Below, one piece after another: positions 16,660 to 22,768 of a stretch of 64,000 bases of DNA. The position numbers were made by a program, and so were the translations under genes. The notes beneath the pieces are model-generated. The model made no database searches and was not told the DNA's origin. It saw only the letters and a list, made by a program, of their open reading frames with translations. This stretch comes from Spiroplasma endosymbiont of Atherix ibis (GTDB lineage: Bacteria; Bacillota_I; Bacilli_A; Mycoplasmatales; Mycoplasmataceae): NCBI RefSeq assembly GCF_964020005.1, contig NZ_OZ026474.1:62001-126000 (forward strand). The letters run 5' to 3'. Numbering within the stretch: the stretch's first letter is position 1; each line of letters begins with the position of its first letter.

Positions 16660-17505
16660 TTATAACTTAATTCTAGATTCATTATAAAAAGATTCATACA
16701 TTTTTAGATTTAAAACATATTCATTTATATCTCTGTATTTATAATTTTCTTTTATAGCTTCTCTCTTCATTATGCTTCAAAAACCCTCAATATATCCATT
16801 GTCAGTTGATCTAGAAACCCTAGACATAATAAGTTTGAAATTAAATCACATTGTAGCTAGTCTATAATTATATGATTTAAATTCTGAACCATTATCAGAA
16901 TGTATAATAGAGTTTTCTTTAAAAGAACCAAATTGATTTGTCATTTTATCAAATGACTCTAAAACTAGATCTTCTCATTTGTGTGTTTTTGTAATTAAAC
17001 CAAAAACTTTCTTGCTATTTACATGATAAAAAGCACAGGTATATAATCTATTTCCTGCAATTTCTTTTTCAGTAATATCAACTGAGAAAACATCACCATA
17101 TTTATTTAAATCACTTTTAGATTTGAATAATCTTGCATACTTTCCAATCTTTTCATTCTTTACTTTTTTAGATTTTATATATCTATAATTATTTGGCTTA
17201 ATATTTAAAAATTTCATAACTCTTAAAATTTTTTTATGACTATACTCAGAATTTAAATATTTTTTTACTCGTCTTGAAACATATATTTGAACTTCGTTTT
17301 TGTAAGCATTATTGATTTCCTGAACAAGTTCCCAATCATAACCTTTAAAATTGGGTTTACCTTTAGCAAGTCAATCATAATATGTGCTTTTTGCCAATAG
17401 AATAAGTTTGCATAACTCTCTAATTTGAACATCTTTTTTTGCTATTCAAAATTTATAAACAACTTTTGATTTGAGTGTATTTAATTGCCACTTATTTACT
17501 TTTTT
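16660..17505 (-). CDS. IS3-family transposase orfB (DDE integrase core)
   Basis: OrfB carries the catalytic core and is made as an OrfAB fusion by -1 frameshifting at A6G (17499-17505); there is no independent good start. It contains an N-terminal HTH_21-like region, then the rve/DDE domain with the first Asp in FSVDITEKE, the second in HSDNGSEF and the Glu in NGYIEGFWSIMKRE, the standard spacing for IS3. The stop is TAA at 16660. Four or more Trp codons are TGA. The frame is open throughout, about 280 residues. Confidence 0.9.
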
Positions 17506-17792
17506 CTATCAATCATTCTTCTTAATTCAGCAAACATCTCATCTCTCAATTTAAGATCTTCAGTTTCTCTTCGCAATTTTTTATTTTCTTTTTCTAAATC
17601 TTTAATTTTGTCAATTTGATTAAATTTTGAATTATTAAATCCACTTCTGCCTTTTTGATCATAGACTTTTATTCAATTTTTAATTCTTTGAACATCAATA
17701 GCTACTTGCTTAGCATATTGAGTTATAGAATGATTTGATTTATAAAAATTAATAATTATATTTATTTTTTGATTAACTGTATACTTATTCAA
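17496..17792 (-). CDS. IS3-family transposase orfA (DNA-binding helix-turn-helix protein)
   Basis: This 98-residue protein has an N-terminal HTH (YAKQVAIDVQRIKNWIKVYD) and a C-terminal coiled coil (KIKDLEKENKKLRRETEDLK), typical of IS3 OrfA, which binds the inverted repeats. The start is TTG 17792 with GAGAGG 7 bases upstream; no in-frame ATG is available. The A6G motif lies just before its stop and lets ribosomes shift into orfB. Confidence 0.85.
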
Positions 17793-17890
17793 AATAAAAC
17801 CTCTCTTCATTCACAAATATTTTATACCTATATATAAAATATTTTAATTTTGTGTCCGAAAAAAGGTTACACTACAAGGTTTTTAATATT

Positions 17891-18234: not shown

Positions 18235-18647
18235 GGGGGTGCCCCGGTTTCGACAGGATACATCTGGTCCATAACTGCAGTGGTTTGGTAGACCTTAATA
18301 CTACTAGGTTTGATAAAATGCAAACGAAGAAAAAAATGAATTTGAAATGCCAGCATTTATGATCAATAATGCATCAGCTGGAGTTGCTTTAGCAGCTTAA
18401 TAAACTATCGAAGTTTATAGCAATTCAACGTTATGAAGTGTGTTTGTGCTTCATTGATTAACGTATTAACTAGCACAATAGAATAAATGATTTTAATGAT
18501 AAATTTATTTGAAATATAATCATTAACGCTATAAAATTGAATCTTGTTGAATCTGTTGTTTTATAGTGTAAGTTAGATACAACTAAACTGTAGATGTTAT
18601 GTGTTGGAGTATTTTGGACGCGGGTTCGATTCCCGCCATCTCCACCA
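18235..18647 (+). ncRNA. ssrA: tmRNA (transfer-messenger RNA)
   Basis: tmRNA rescues ribosomes stalled on broken mRNA. The 5' end GGGGGTGCCCCGGTTTCGAC and the 3' end GGTTCGATTCCCGCC-ATCTCCACCA form the tRNA-like domain: the first seven bases pair with CATCTCC before ACCA, allowing two G-U pairs. The T-arm GGTTCGATTCC and the encoded CCA are clear. The tag reading frame starts at GCA 18320 and ends with TAA TAA at 18398: it begins ANEEKNEFEMPAFMINN and ends GVALAA (26 residues). The core resembles other Spiroplasma/Mycoplasma tags, which contain EMPAFMINNASAG. Partners SmpB and RNase R are encoded upstream at 12.8-15.3 kb. Confidence 0.97.
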
Positions 18648-18690: not shown

Positions 18691-20637
18691 ATGAATATTT
18701 TGTCAATATTAATTGCATGTCTTTCTTATACAACAATTATGGCTATGTGTTATACAATATTTTGAGGTTTAACAAGACATTTGTTTGCTAAGTTAAAAAT
18801 TTATTATGATTTTTTTTTAGGATTTGTTTTGGGGTTTATTTCAACATTTTCAATTGTTTTAATAAATTTGCTTACTAATAATGCTAGTAATTTAGAACTT
18901 ACTATTTTATTACCAACTTTTTTATATTGAGTTTCTATTATTTTTATTTCATCATTTTCAAGTATTGGAATATTAACATGTAATATATTAAATTTAGTTT
19001 TGTTTTCTTCATTATTTAGTGATTTTTTTGGAAAACCAACAAATGCTTCAACAATTACAATTTTAATAATAGCTTATATAGTTCCACTTTTGAATTATCT
19101 AATTTCACTATTTTGAAAAAAAATATCCAATTGATCTAATTGATCAATAACAACAATTATTCTACTTATTGTAGGATTAACTTGAAATTTAATTATAATA
19201 AAAACACCAAAAGATCTTCCAAATATAGCTAATTTATTATTTTGATTAGGTAGTGGATATTTAGCCTATGCTTATATTACAGTTGTTAATCAAATATATA
19301 TTCATGCTTTAAAATTACAAAATATTGTTAGATATGATAATTTATATTACTTAAATTTTTCCTCAGCTCATGAACAAATCCTAAATAAAGTTCAAGAAAA
19401 TAAAATAAAATATGGAATATATTTAACTTATTTTATTTCTGATTTTGAAAAGTTTGAATCAAAAGTAAATGGAGAAATAAAAGAAAAAATTGTAAATTCA
19501 ATTTCTGAAGAAAGTTATAATCTAATAAAAGAAAGTTTTTTAAATGCAATATTTTTTAAACCAAACTATAAAACTTTTGGAGTTTTTATTCCAATAGAGA
19601 TTAATGAAAGCTTTAATGAAAATGAAAATAATTATTTAGAAGTAATAAAAAATATATTTAAAAAAATAAATGTAGATTTTAAAATTGATAATTATAGAAT
19701 ATCTATAAAATTAAAATCAATTTGTTCATATTATGGATTGCACTCTAATAATTTAGATACTCTATTAGAATATAATAAACATGTTGCTAATGATTTCTTA
19801 TTAACTTATCAAGATAGAAATATTATAGTAAGTCCAATAGAAATTTTAAAAGAGAAAAATCAAAATAAAAAAATGCTTTCGCTAAATGAGGTAGCAAATT
19901 TAAATCAATTTGTAACGTTATTTCAACCTATATTTTCTATAGAAGAAAAAGATTTTAATTCTTATTTTTTAAATGGAATGATTGAAGGAATTGAAATAGA
20001 TTCTGAATTATTTAGTAAGAAAAATAAATTAATTTTGGATATGGGGTTATGAACTTTATTTTTAAGATATACTTCATTTCAATCTTTAAAAAAGTTGTCA
20101 AAACAAAATATTTCAGTTAAAGAAAAACCTATTTTTATAGATTATGATAGTAATTATTTATCAAGTGATAATTTTGATGCAAATGAATTTTTGTTAAAAT
20201 TAAGAAATTTGAAAATTAATTTATCAAAGATAGTTTTAAATTTTGATTTAAATAAAGATGTTGAAAATCAAAAGTTATTAGAAAAAAACATTCAAAAATT
20301 GAAAAAAAACTTAATAAGAATATCAGTTTCAAATTTTGGTTCGTTAAAAACAGATTTTTCTTTAATTAGTTTATATAGACCTGAATTTATTTTTTTAGAA
20401 AAAGAAATCTCAAAGAAAATAAATTATATTAAAGAAAATGAAAATATAGTATTGGAAAGTATTAAAATTGCAAATAAAATAGAAGCAAAATTAATTGCAA
20501 CTTCTGTAAATAGCTATATAATTTATAAACATCTAAGATTTTTAGGAATTAAAATATTTACAGGTGAACTTATTGGTAGTTCAATTGAGCCAAAAGAAAT
20601 AATTTCAGAAGAATTAAAATATTTATTAAACAAATAG
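18691..20637 (+). CDS. Membrane protein with degenerate GGDEF and EAL-like domains
   Basis: The protein is 648 residues. Residues 1 to about 225 form about seven membrane helices. A GGDEF-like domain follows: YDNLYYLNFSSAHEQI mirrors the YDxLTxLxNRxxF start, but no GG(D/E)EF motif is found. The C-terminal third follows the EAL domain order: LFQPIFSIEEK, then RISVSNFGSLKTDFSLI where active enzymes have DDFGTGYSSL, RPEFIFLEKEI for VDYLKIDRSFV, and HLRFLGIKIFTGELIGSS for LxxLGxxxxQGYLFG. The catalytic residues (EAL, DD, EGVE) are replaced. It is probably a sensor or scaffold rather than a c-di-GMP enzyme. It starts 43 bases after tmRNA and ends 14 bases before mgtE. Domain calls are by eye. Confidence 0.65.
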
Positions 20638-20651
20638 AAGGGAAATTATAA

Positions 20652-22103
20652 ATGTTAGAAAAAAAAGAAAATTTAAAAATCTTGAGTGAGGAAATTGAAA
20701 AATTAGTAATTGATAATGATATTAAAAAGCTTAGAGATTTAGAAGAATTGCACTATCCACAAGATATTGCAGAAGCACTTGAACAATTAGATGAAAAAAT
20801 TATTATTATTGCTTTAAGATTATTTACAAATGATACAAGTAGTGAAATTTTTCCACATCTTGATGCAGATATACAAGAAAAAATTATAAATAAAATGTCT
20901 TCTAAACAAATTGCTGAACTATTTTCAGATTTATATACAGATGATATTGTAGATATTCTAGAAGAAATGCCTTCAAATATTGTTAAAAAAGTTTTACGAT
21001 CGTCAACTCCAGAAGCAAGAGCACAAATAAATAGTATTTTAAAATATAATGATGACACTGCAGGAAGCATTATGAGCGTTGATTATACAAGATTTAAAGT
21101 AGATTGAACAGTTACTGAAGCAATTGAAAAAATTAGAGAACGTGATGAAGAATCTGAAGATCATAATACATTTTATGTAGTAGATGATTTAAATAATTTA
21201 AAAGGAACAGTAGAATTAAAGGATTTAGTTTTTTCTAAAGGTAACTTAAAATTATCTGAAATTATGGATGAACGTGTTCTTTTTGCCTTTACAAAAGATG
21301 ATCAAGAAACTGTTATAGATAAGTTTAAAAAGTATGATATTACAACTTTACCTGTTATTAACATTCAACAAAAATTAGTTGGTATTGTTACAATAGATGA
21401 TGTTCTTGATGTTATTGAAGAAGAAGTAACAGAAGATATTCATAAAATGGCTGGTATTACTCCAACAGATGATGAATATTTTAAAACTAGTATTTGAAAA
21501 ATGGTTAGATCAAGAAGTATTTGATTAATGTTTTTAATGATTTCTGCAACTTTATCACAAATTATAATAACTATATTTATGAAAATTTACAGTGCAAATC
21601 AAATAAACAATGGTCAAAGTTCAGTTAGTGAAATTAGTTATATTATTACAATGTTTTTAACTCCTTTACTAACAATAATATCAGGAACAACTGGGAATGC
21701 AGGTAGCCAATCATCAACTATGATTGTTAGAGCTTTGTCTTTAAAAGAAGTAGAAACAAAAGATTTTGCAAGGGTATTGTGGAAAGAATTTAGAGTAGCG
21801 CTTATTACTGGTTTAATATTAATATCTATTAACTTTGTAAGAATGGTTATAATTTACTCAGTTGAAAAAAATAGAAATCTTGATGATCCAAGAATTTGAT
21901 ATACAATTGCAACACTTTCTATTTCAATGTATTTATCTGTAATAATGGCAAAAATAATTGGAGGAACTCTTCCAATACTTGCTAAAAAACTGAAATTAGA
22001 TCCTGCTGTAATGGCGGCACCTTTACTTACAACAATAGTTGATGCTTTATCTACTGCAATATTTTTCTCAATTGGTTTAATTTTCTTTGCACAATATATT
22101 TAA
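20652..22103 (+). CDS. mgtE: Magnesium transporter MgtE
   Basis: MgtE is a Mg2+ channel gated by cytosolic Mg2+. The 483-residue protein has the N-domain of superhelical repeats (LHYPQDIAEALEQLDEK, AELFSDLYTDDIVDILEEMP), two CBS domains (about residues 135-255, ending TTLPVINIQQKLVGIVTIDDVLDVIEEE) and five membrane segments with the conserved pore region TPLLTIISGTTGNAGSQSST and the late PILAKKLKLDPAVMAAPLLTTIVDALS. GAAGGG precedes the ATG. It is immediately downstream of the GGDEF/EAL-like gene and upstream of trmB. Confidence 0.96.
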
Positions 22104-22117
22104 AAAAAGAGGTCAAA

Positions 22118-22768
22118 ATGAGATTAAGAAATAAAAAATGAACTAAAGATTATATTAAAGATAACTTAAAATATATGATAAAGATAAAGAAGAAAATTAA
22201 CGTTGATAAATTATTTATAAAAAAACAAGATACTTATTTAGAAATAGGTTGTGGAAAAGGAAAATTTATAATTGAGCAAGCTATTAAAAATAAAGATAAA
22301 AATTTTATAGCGATGGAGAAAGAAACTACAGTAGTTGGTGTTGCTTTAAAGAAAGCTATTACAACTGAAAATTTTGATTTAGCAAATTTATTATTTTTAA
22401 ATAAATTTGCTGAGAATTTATTAGACATATTTGAAAATAATTCAATTAGTGGAATATTTCTTAATTTTTTAGATCCTTGACCTAAATTCAAAAATTTTAA
22501 AAAAAGACTGACATATATAGATTTTTTAAATATATATTGAGATTTGCTCAAAGATAATGGAGTTATTGAAATAAAAACAGATAATGATAAACTATATGAG
22601 TTTAGTTTAGAACAAATAGCAAAATCAAAATTTAAATTAATTTATAATACAAATAATTTATATTTTGAAAAAAAATTATTGAAAGACAATATAGCAACTG
22701 AATATGAAGAAAAATTTTGTAGTTTAGGTAAAAATATAAATAAAATAGTAATAAAAAAAGAACTTTAA
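22118..22768 (+). CDS. trmB: tRNA (guanine-N7-)-methyltransferase
   Basis: TrmB makes m7G46 in the variable loop of tRNA using S-adenosylmethionine. The 216-residue protein has the SAM-binding motif YLEIGCGKGKF near residue 45, NFIAMEKE as the acidic loop, and the family hallmark LDPWPKFKNFKKRLT, where W is a TGA codon. The C-terminal ATEYEEKFCSLGKNI matches the TxYExxxxxxGxxI end of TrmB. AGAGG precedes ATG 22118. It converges on the minus-strand membrane gene, with 3 bases between their stops. Confidence 0.94.

Follow-up and report, generated by a model that had tools for sequence, protein, structure and literature searches.

The locus and its neighbours

The window analysed here comprises 64,000 nucleotides of the genome of the Spiroplasma endosymbiont of Atherix ibis, which consists of a single contig of 1,072,050 bases and is 99.9% complete. 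A gene for a 648-residue protein, referred to below as the EAL gene, lies between a tmRNA gene, its direct upstream neighbour, and a conserved cluster partner, mgtE, followed by a trmB-like gene (Table 1). The EAL gene starts with ATG and runs uninterrupted for 648 codons under translation table 4, with eight in-frame TGA codons read as tryptophan, and the homologues share its start position in the alignment. The intact frame given in the initial annotation (18691-20637, forward strand) was confirmed. The second gene of the cluster, mgtE, follows after a gap of 14 bases. Upstream on the reverse strand, two adjoining frames at 16660-17843 of the window resemble an IS3-type transposase pair (HSDNGSEF motif); this pair was present at this place in the genome of the window, whereas the compared flanks of its nearest relatives did not include it.

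Table 1. Genes of the EAL locus and domains of the encoded protein, with positions in the window
Feature	Position	Strand	Basis
tmRNA gene (ssrA)	18235..18647	+	ARAGORN; tag EEKNEFEMPAFMINNASAGVALAA
Gene of the putative 7TM, GGDEF-like, EAL-like pseudoenzyme, 648 aa	18691..20637	+	Table 4 frame; Pfam EAL
Membrane domain, residues 1-212, seven predicted helices	18691..19326	+	AlphaFold2, hydropathy, loop charges
Helix 7, residues 173-219, predicted to run from membrane into cytoplasm	19207..19347	+	Model; alignment
Predicted GGDEF fold without GGDEF motif, residues 213-380	19327..19830	+	Model; structural match to 5m3c
EAL fold, residues 395-648, 0/11 canonical residues	19873..20634	+	Pfam, profile against PDB, VIA-align, residue table
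mgtE (Mg2+ transporter)	20652..22103	+	Pfam MgtE 3.2e-35, MgtE_N, CBS; synteny
trmB-like methyltransferase gene, third of the cluster	22118..22768	+	Pfam Methyltransf_4 1.3e-37; synteny

Domain architecture of the protein

The protein was modelled with AlphaFold2 from 35 aligned sequences (mean pLDDT 86.8). The membrane domain of the model contained helices at residues 3-26, 36-62, 65-86, 88-108, 119-141, 147-169, and 173-219, and the charges of the loops fitted a topology with the N-terminus outside and the C-terminus inside. Six of these helices reached best 19-residue hydropathy means of 1.6-2.3, whereas the seventh reached 1.26 only. The seventh helix carries A206 and L209, both invariant in the 35-sequence alignment, and in the model it is a plausible signalling helix. 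No Pfam family matched the seven-helix domain, and no relative of it was found with Pfam.

Residues 226-379 of the predicted structure followed the helix and strand order of a GGDEF domain. The first seventeen Foldseek matches of the 648-residue model were all GGDEF-EAL tandems, and the best match in the PDB with VIA-align was the GGDEF-EAL tandem of PA0575 (5m3c), with a Z-score of 25.1 over 404 residues (214-638) and an rmsd of 14 that arose from the differing placement of the two domains. By sequence, no GGDEF match was obtained with Pfam or with a family profile against PDB sequences; the assignment of the GGDEF fold is one from predicted structure. Two other matches were set aside: in the search for GGDEF by sequence, the sole PDB match of profile A4 was an unrelated allergen (E 0.7), and a phmmer search of the PDB with the single protein aligned residues 225-302 to an ADP-ribosyltransferase (E about 0.2), which was taken as chance. 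The GG(D/E)EF active-site motif was absent from the protein, and the equivalent stretch was FKPNYKTFGVFIP. The GGDEF fold holds the most conserved motif of the family, YGLHSNNLDTLLEYN, with G349, L358, and N362 invariant; this strongest motif (YGLHSNN...YN) stands at the end of the fold.

The C-terminal part was recognised both by sequence and by structure. Pfam EAL (PF00563) matched residues 403-629 with an E-value of 5.6e-15 and 55.8 bits against a curated cut-off of 31.3, and EAL was matched by all 35 sequences of the family alignment; therefore, the match is not due to chance. A profile of the family matched solved EAL structures by sequence, the best being an EAL enzyme of Vibrio cholerae (E 8e-17). 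Residues 395-648 of the model had the helix and strand order of an EAL domain and aligned with single EAL structures over about 235 residues (Z 20-23, about 3 Å), and the different fold that would have spoken against the initial annotation was not found for them. No DHH or DHHA1 domain matched in the 648-residue protein, the C-terminal part of which is EAL. The domain order proposed in the initial annotation, with a 7TM part followed by GGDEF-like and EAL-like segments, was thereby borne out by the Pfam EAL match and the predicted structure.

Loss of canonical active-site and pocket residues

The EAL parts of the 35 family members were aligned with PdeL, PdeH, and CsrD of E. coli and with class-level EAL proteins, and eleven canonical catalytic or binding positions were compared, with a metal and catalytic set that included the E of EAL, N, E, DD, K, the E of EGVE, and Q. 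All eleven residues were present in 16 of the 17 class-level EAL proteins, and the E. coli proteins had 11 (PdeL), 10 (PdeH), and 6 (CsrD). The window protein had none, and the family members had 0-2 without consistency. The motif changes listed in the initial annotation were as stated: SNFG was found for DDFG and SVN at the position of EGVE, no EAL or GGDEF motif was present, and all catalytic signatures were lost. The residues that were invariant in the 35-sequence alignment were Y39, F85, A206, L209, G349, L358, N362, R459, Y485, F495, and G625.

LapD and FimX provide precedents for a dead EAL domain with c-di-GMP binding. They are catalysis-free GGDEF-EAL tandems like the 648-residue protein, were both among its structural matches, and were solved with c-di-GMP bound according to the entry titles. 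By this precedent, the protein might be a receptor that still binds a cyclic dinucleotide, either host- or microbe-derived c-di-GMP or c-di-AMP. However, the 35 sequences do not conserve the R of EALxR or the further pocket residues (asparagine, glutamates, aspartates, lysine, and glutamine) and, judged from the alignment, the c-di-GMP pocket of the LapD/FimX type is not kept in the dead EAL domain. Even with the canonical residues lost, c-di-GMP or another nucleotide might still be bound in a different way. No counterpart of the periplasmic output domain of LapD was seen in the mollicute protein.

The genome of the window gave one EAL match and no GGDEF match with Pfam. No diguanylate cyclase was found with Pfam in 248 genomes of the order, a result that depends on the sensitivity of Pfam, and there were only four weak GGDEF matches in these genomes (L084, L085, L086, and L087). 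Read by eye, the four proteins had the order membrane-PAS-GGDEF-DHH and look like GdpP, the c-di-AMP hydrolase; on this reading, none of them was counted as a true diguanylate cyclase. Mollicutes use c-di-AMP. Like the window protein, GdpP (PAS-degenerate GGDEF-DHH) is found in the membrane of mollicutes and its GGDEF domain is degenerate, but the window protein has an EAL domain and no DHH domain. Since the pocket is unconserved and the search of the order gave no diguanylate cyclase, we regard a cyclic dinucleotide receptor as very unlikely. The nucleotide sensing suggested in the initial annotation was weakened accordingly, since the loss of catalytic residues extends to those that bind c-di-GMP in canonical EAL domains and the order yielded no cyclase capable of making the ligand.

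Conservation of the gene and its relation to mgtE

The EAL gene was present at full length in 41 of the 60 genomes of its family, and the frames were intact in all orthologues aligned. The dN/dS ratios against the four nearest aligned orthologues were 0.12-0.18 for the whole gene and 0.10-0.16 for the EAL part, as simple Nei-Gojobori counts with partly saturated synonymous sites and with the distant pairs, which were near saturation, left out. The loss of all catalytic residues would fit a decaying, functionless relic, and "relic" was the term used in the initial annotation. However, the whole-gene dN/dS, the retention in 41 of the 60 genomes, and the place of the gene at the head of a conserved EAL-mgtE-trmB cluster showed that this term is wrong: purifying selection acts on the gene, and its presence is the norm in its lineage. 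Given the low ratios between near relatives, the intact frames of the aligned orthologues, and an architecture kept over the whole length, decay was rejected as extremely improbable. The conserved non-enzymatic role that the initial annotation had also proposed was supported.

The order EAL-mgtE-trmB was found in genera g1, g3, g8, g9, g10, and g12 wherever the available sequence reached far enough to show it, and EAL-mgtE was found in the rest. The cluster lay on one strand with gaps of tens of bases, with genus g5 and the f8 genus as exceptions. This conserved order and the short gap in the window would suit an operon partner that regulates MgtE, or a Mg2+ sensor. However, no MgtE match was found in the 14 genomes of g5 (G061, G082, G112, G147, and others), and 13 of the 14 kept the EAL gene, which adjoined trmB where examined. 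Conversely, mgtE was retained in 18/18 genomes of five f1 genera (g2, g4, g6, g7, and g11), none of which had the EAL gene, and in f8 mgtE was located about 4 kb from it. Because g5 is without MgtE and other genera have mgtE only, the EAL protein and MgtE are neighbours and not obligate partners. An obligate partnership was ruled out on these grounds, and we give regulation of MgtE or Mg2+ sensing little credence. The location next to mgtE noted initially stood as far as adjacency and conserved order were concerned, but neither gene needs the other. The genera close to g5 all carry mgtE at the EAL locus.

A probable pseudoenzyme acting by protein contacts

The protein is probably a membrane-anchored pseudoenzyme that arose from a diguanylate cyclase/phosphodiesterase tandem and relays a membrane signal through protein contacts. 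The seven-helix membrane part would take up the signal, and the long helix 7, as placed in the model, would hand it on to the two cytoplasmic domains, one GGDEF-like and one EAL-like. Given the residues lost, these two domains would no longer make or break c-di-GMP, and the alignment suggests that they have most likely lost its binding too. They may instead act by altering how they bind to one or several partner proteins. The protein would resemble in its action those degenerate E. coli GGDEF/EAL proteins that work through protein contacts, and not a phosphodiesterase.

CsrD, BluF, and RflP/YdiV of E. coli likewise have degenerate GGDEF and/or EAL domains; they were listed as degenerate, and their protein contacts have been studied (PMC5635695). 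CsrD is membrane-anchored with both domains degenerate, as here, which is a likeness of build and not evidence of common descent. Of the 11 EAL positions, CsrD kept 6 and the mollicute protein none, and a further difference is the 7TM domain of the latter. Additionally, E. coli makes c-di-GMP and has many active cyclases, whereas none was found in the mollicute order.

No description of a 7TM-GGDEF-EAL family in Spiroplasma was found in the open-access papers searched, among which there was one report of a mollicute EAL domain outside Acholeplasma. In that report, published in 2024, gene U1 of the coral mollicute Candidatus Oceanoplasma callogorgiae has an EAL domain, read as potentially degrading c-di-GMP and taken by the authors as a sign that the use of c-di-GMP was kept or regained (PMC11535214). 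As described there, the U1 product is a membrane protein with an EAL-like region and is encoded by one of the most transcribed genes (PMC11535214); it was compared with the window protein by description alone. Our results bear on the claim that a mollicute EAL domain implies c-di-GMP signalling (PMC11535214), and we argue that an EAL match in this order need not mean the use of c-di-GMP. With a GGDEF-EAL protein under selection and no cyclase found, this seems to be a lineage in which the c-di-GMP machinery has outlived its messenger.

Homologues and co-occurrence with MreB and fibril

A separate type of dead protein, which speaks for the pseudoenzyme reading, was found in a second mollicute family, f5, in which 9/9 genomes had an EAL match. 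The six f5 proteins that were read had one membrane helix and a degenerate PAS-GGDEF-EAL part, distinct from the 7TM type. In L061-L067, KYYDGEF or KYYDGQF stood at the GGDEF position, and there were 4-6 MreB matches per genome. The first Foldseek match of the modelled f5 protein (pLDDT 63, medium confidence) was the crystallised PAS-GGDEF-EAL protein PA0861, and the same motifs were lost as in the 7TM protein. Comparison of the 7TM and f5 group profiles linked the two groups over the EAL part, with a probability of 95.7% and an E-value of 9e-9. Weaker members were found in G003, G245, and G059. When the profile was built from the members of all groups, a 673-residue 7TM homologue was found in G018 of family f3 (L186, 7308-9326, reverse strand), which carries the YGxHSN motif and has its EAL domain cut short at the end; this combined profile found nothing in f9, in G010 or G171, or in those f1 genera that lack the gene. 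In G018, a trmB match was located about 3.4 kb from the homologue, and MreB was represented by a single weak match only.

The genome of the window contained seven MreB-type matches and a full-length protein of 512 residues with an N-terminal nucleosidase-type domain, which we take to be the spiroplasma fibril protein. Together with the reading of TGA as tryptophan, these features point to a helical spiroplasma. Genomes with at least four PF06723 matches were counted as multi-MreB, and single weak matches were read as DnaK-like. Pfam EAL was found in 51 of the 54 multi-MreB genomes (42 of f1, 9 of f5, 1 of f11, and 2 of f9) and in 4 of the 194 others, or at least 5 with G018. In f1, the EAL gene occurred in exactly the genera with a full-length fibril protein and in none of the five genera without one, with G171 as the exception. 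This co-occurrence hints at shape, swimming, or chemotaxis. The protein could then serve the MreB/fibril swimming machine as its sensor or anchor in the membrane: the 7TM domain would detect an attractant or the state of the membrane, and the switching of helicity by MreB would be steered by the dead GGDEF-EAL part. This would be a special case of the pseudoenzyme reading with the partner named. Spiroplasma shows chemotaxis without a two-component system (PMC5289999), by a mechanism that has been called unknown (PMC5289999, PMC7609405), which makes a role in chemotaxis an attractive lead.

However, the RpoB tree, built by a quick method, placed those f1 genera that lack the EAL gene in one clade, which amounts to essentially one shared loss. 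The phylogenetically independent EAL/MreB pairs numbered 2-4 concordant and 0 discordant, with a p-value of 0.125 at best. The EAL family or the PAS type was kept without multi-copy MreB in f8, G003, G245, and G018, and multi-copy MreB was present without an EAL protein in two f9 genomes and G171. In mycoplasma hosts, MreB proteins were reported to suffice for both helicity and kinking (PMC9663586), and within the window the EAL gene was not near mreB genes. The MreB link, strong by raw counts, was not significant when relatedness was counted, and it was weakened further by the G018 homologue. Since the independent events are too few and the protein is kept in some lineages that are without MreB, a role in the cytoskeleton or chemotaxis was treated as a lead and not as a finding, and a sensor or anchor of the swimming machine is considered unlikely. 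The narrower proposal, in which the 7TM protein with its dead GGDEF-EAL part is the sensory transducer of helicity-switching chemotaxis and signals directly to the MreB/fibril ribbon, is held to be quite improbable; if it were true, a c-di-GMP module that has lost its messenger would be the long-sought chemotaxis transducer. The gene is a concrete candidate for the sensing of surroundings by spiroplasmas, in which chemotaxis proceeds without two-component systems (PMC5289999).

Within genus g20 of f9, multi-copy MreB varied between close species (G009 and G022 against G016 and G028), with five MreB matches or a single weak one, and no EAL protein was found in either MreB state. In the genome of the window, a second, distant fibril-like match was located at G000:C1:820876-822123 on the reverse strand, with 22% identity over residues 4-449 and a TAA within the matched stretch.
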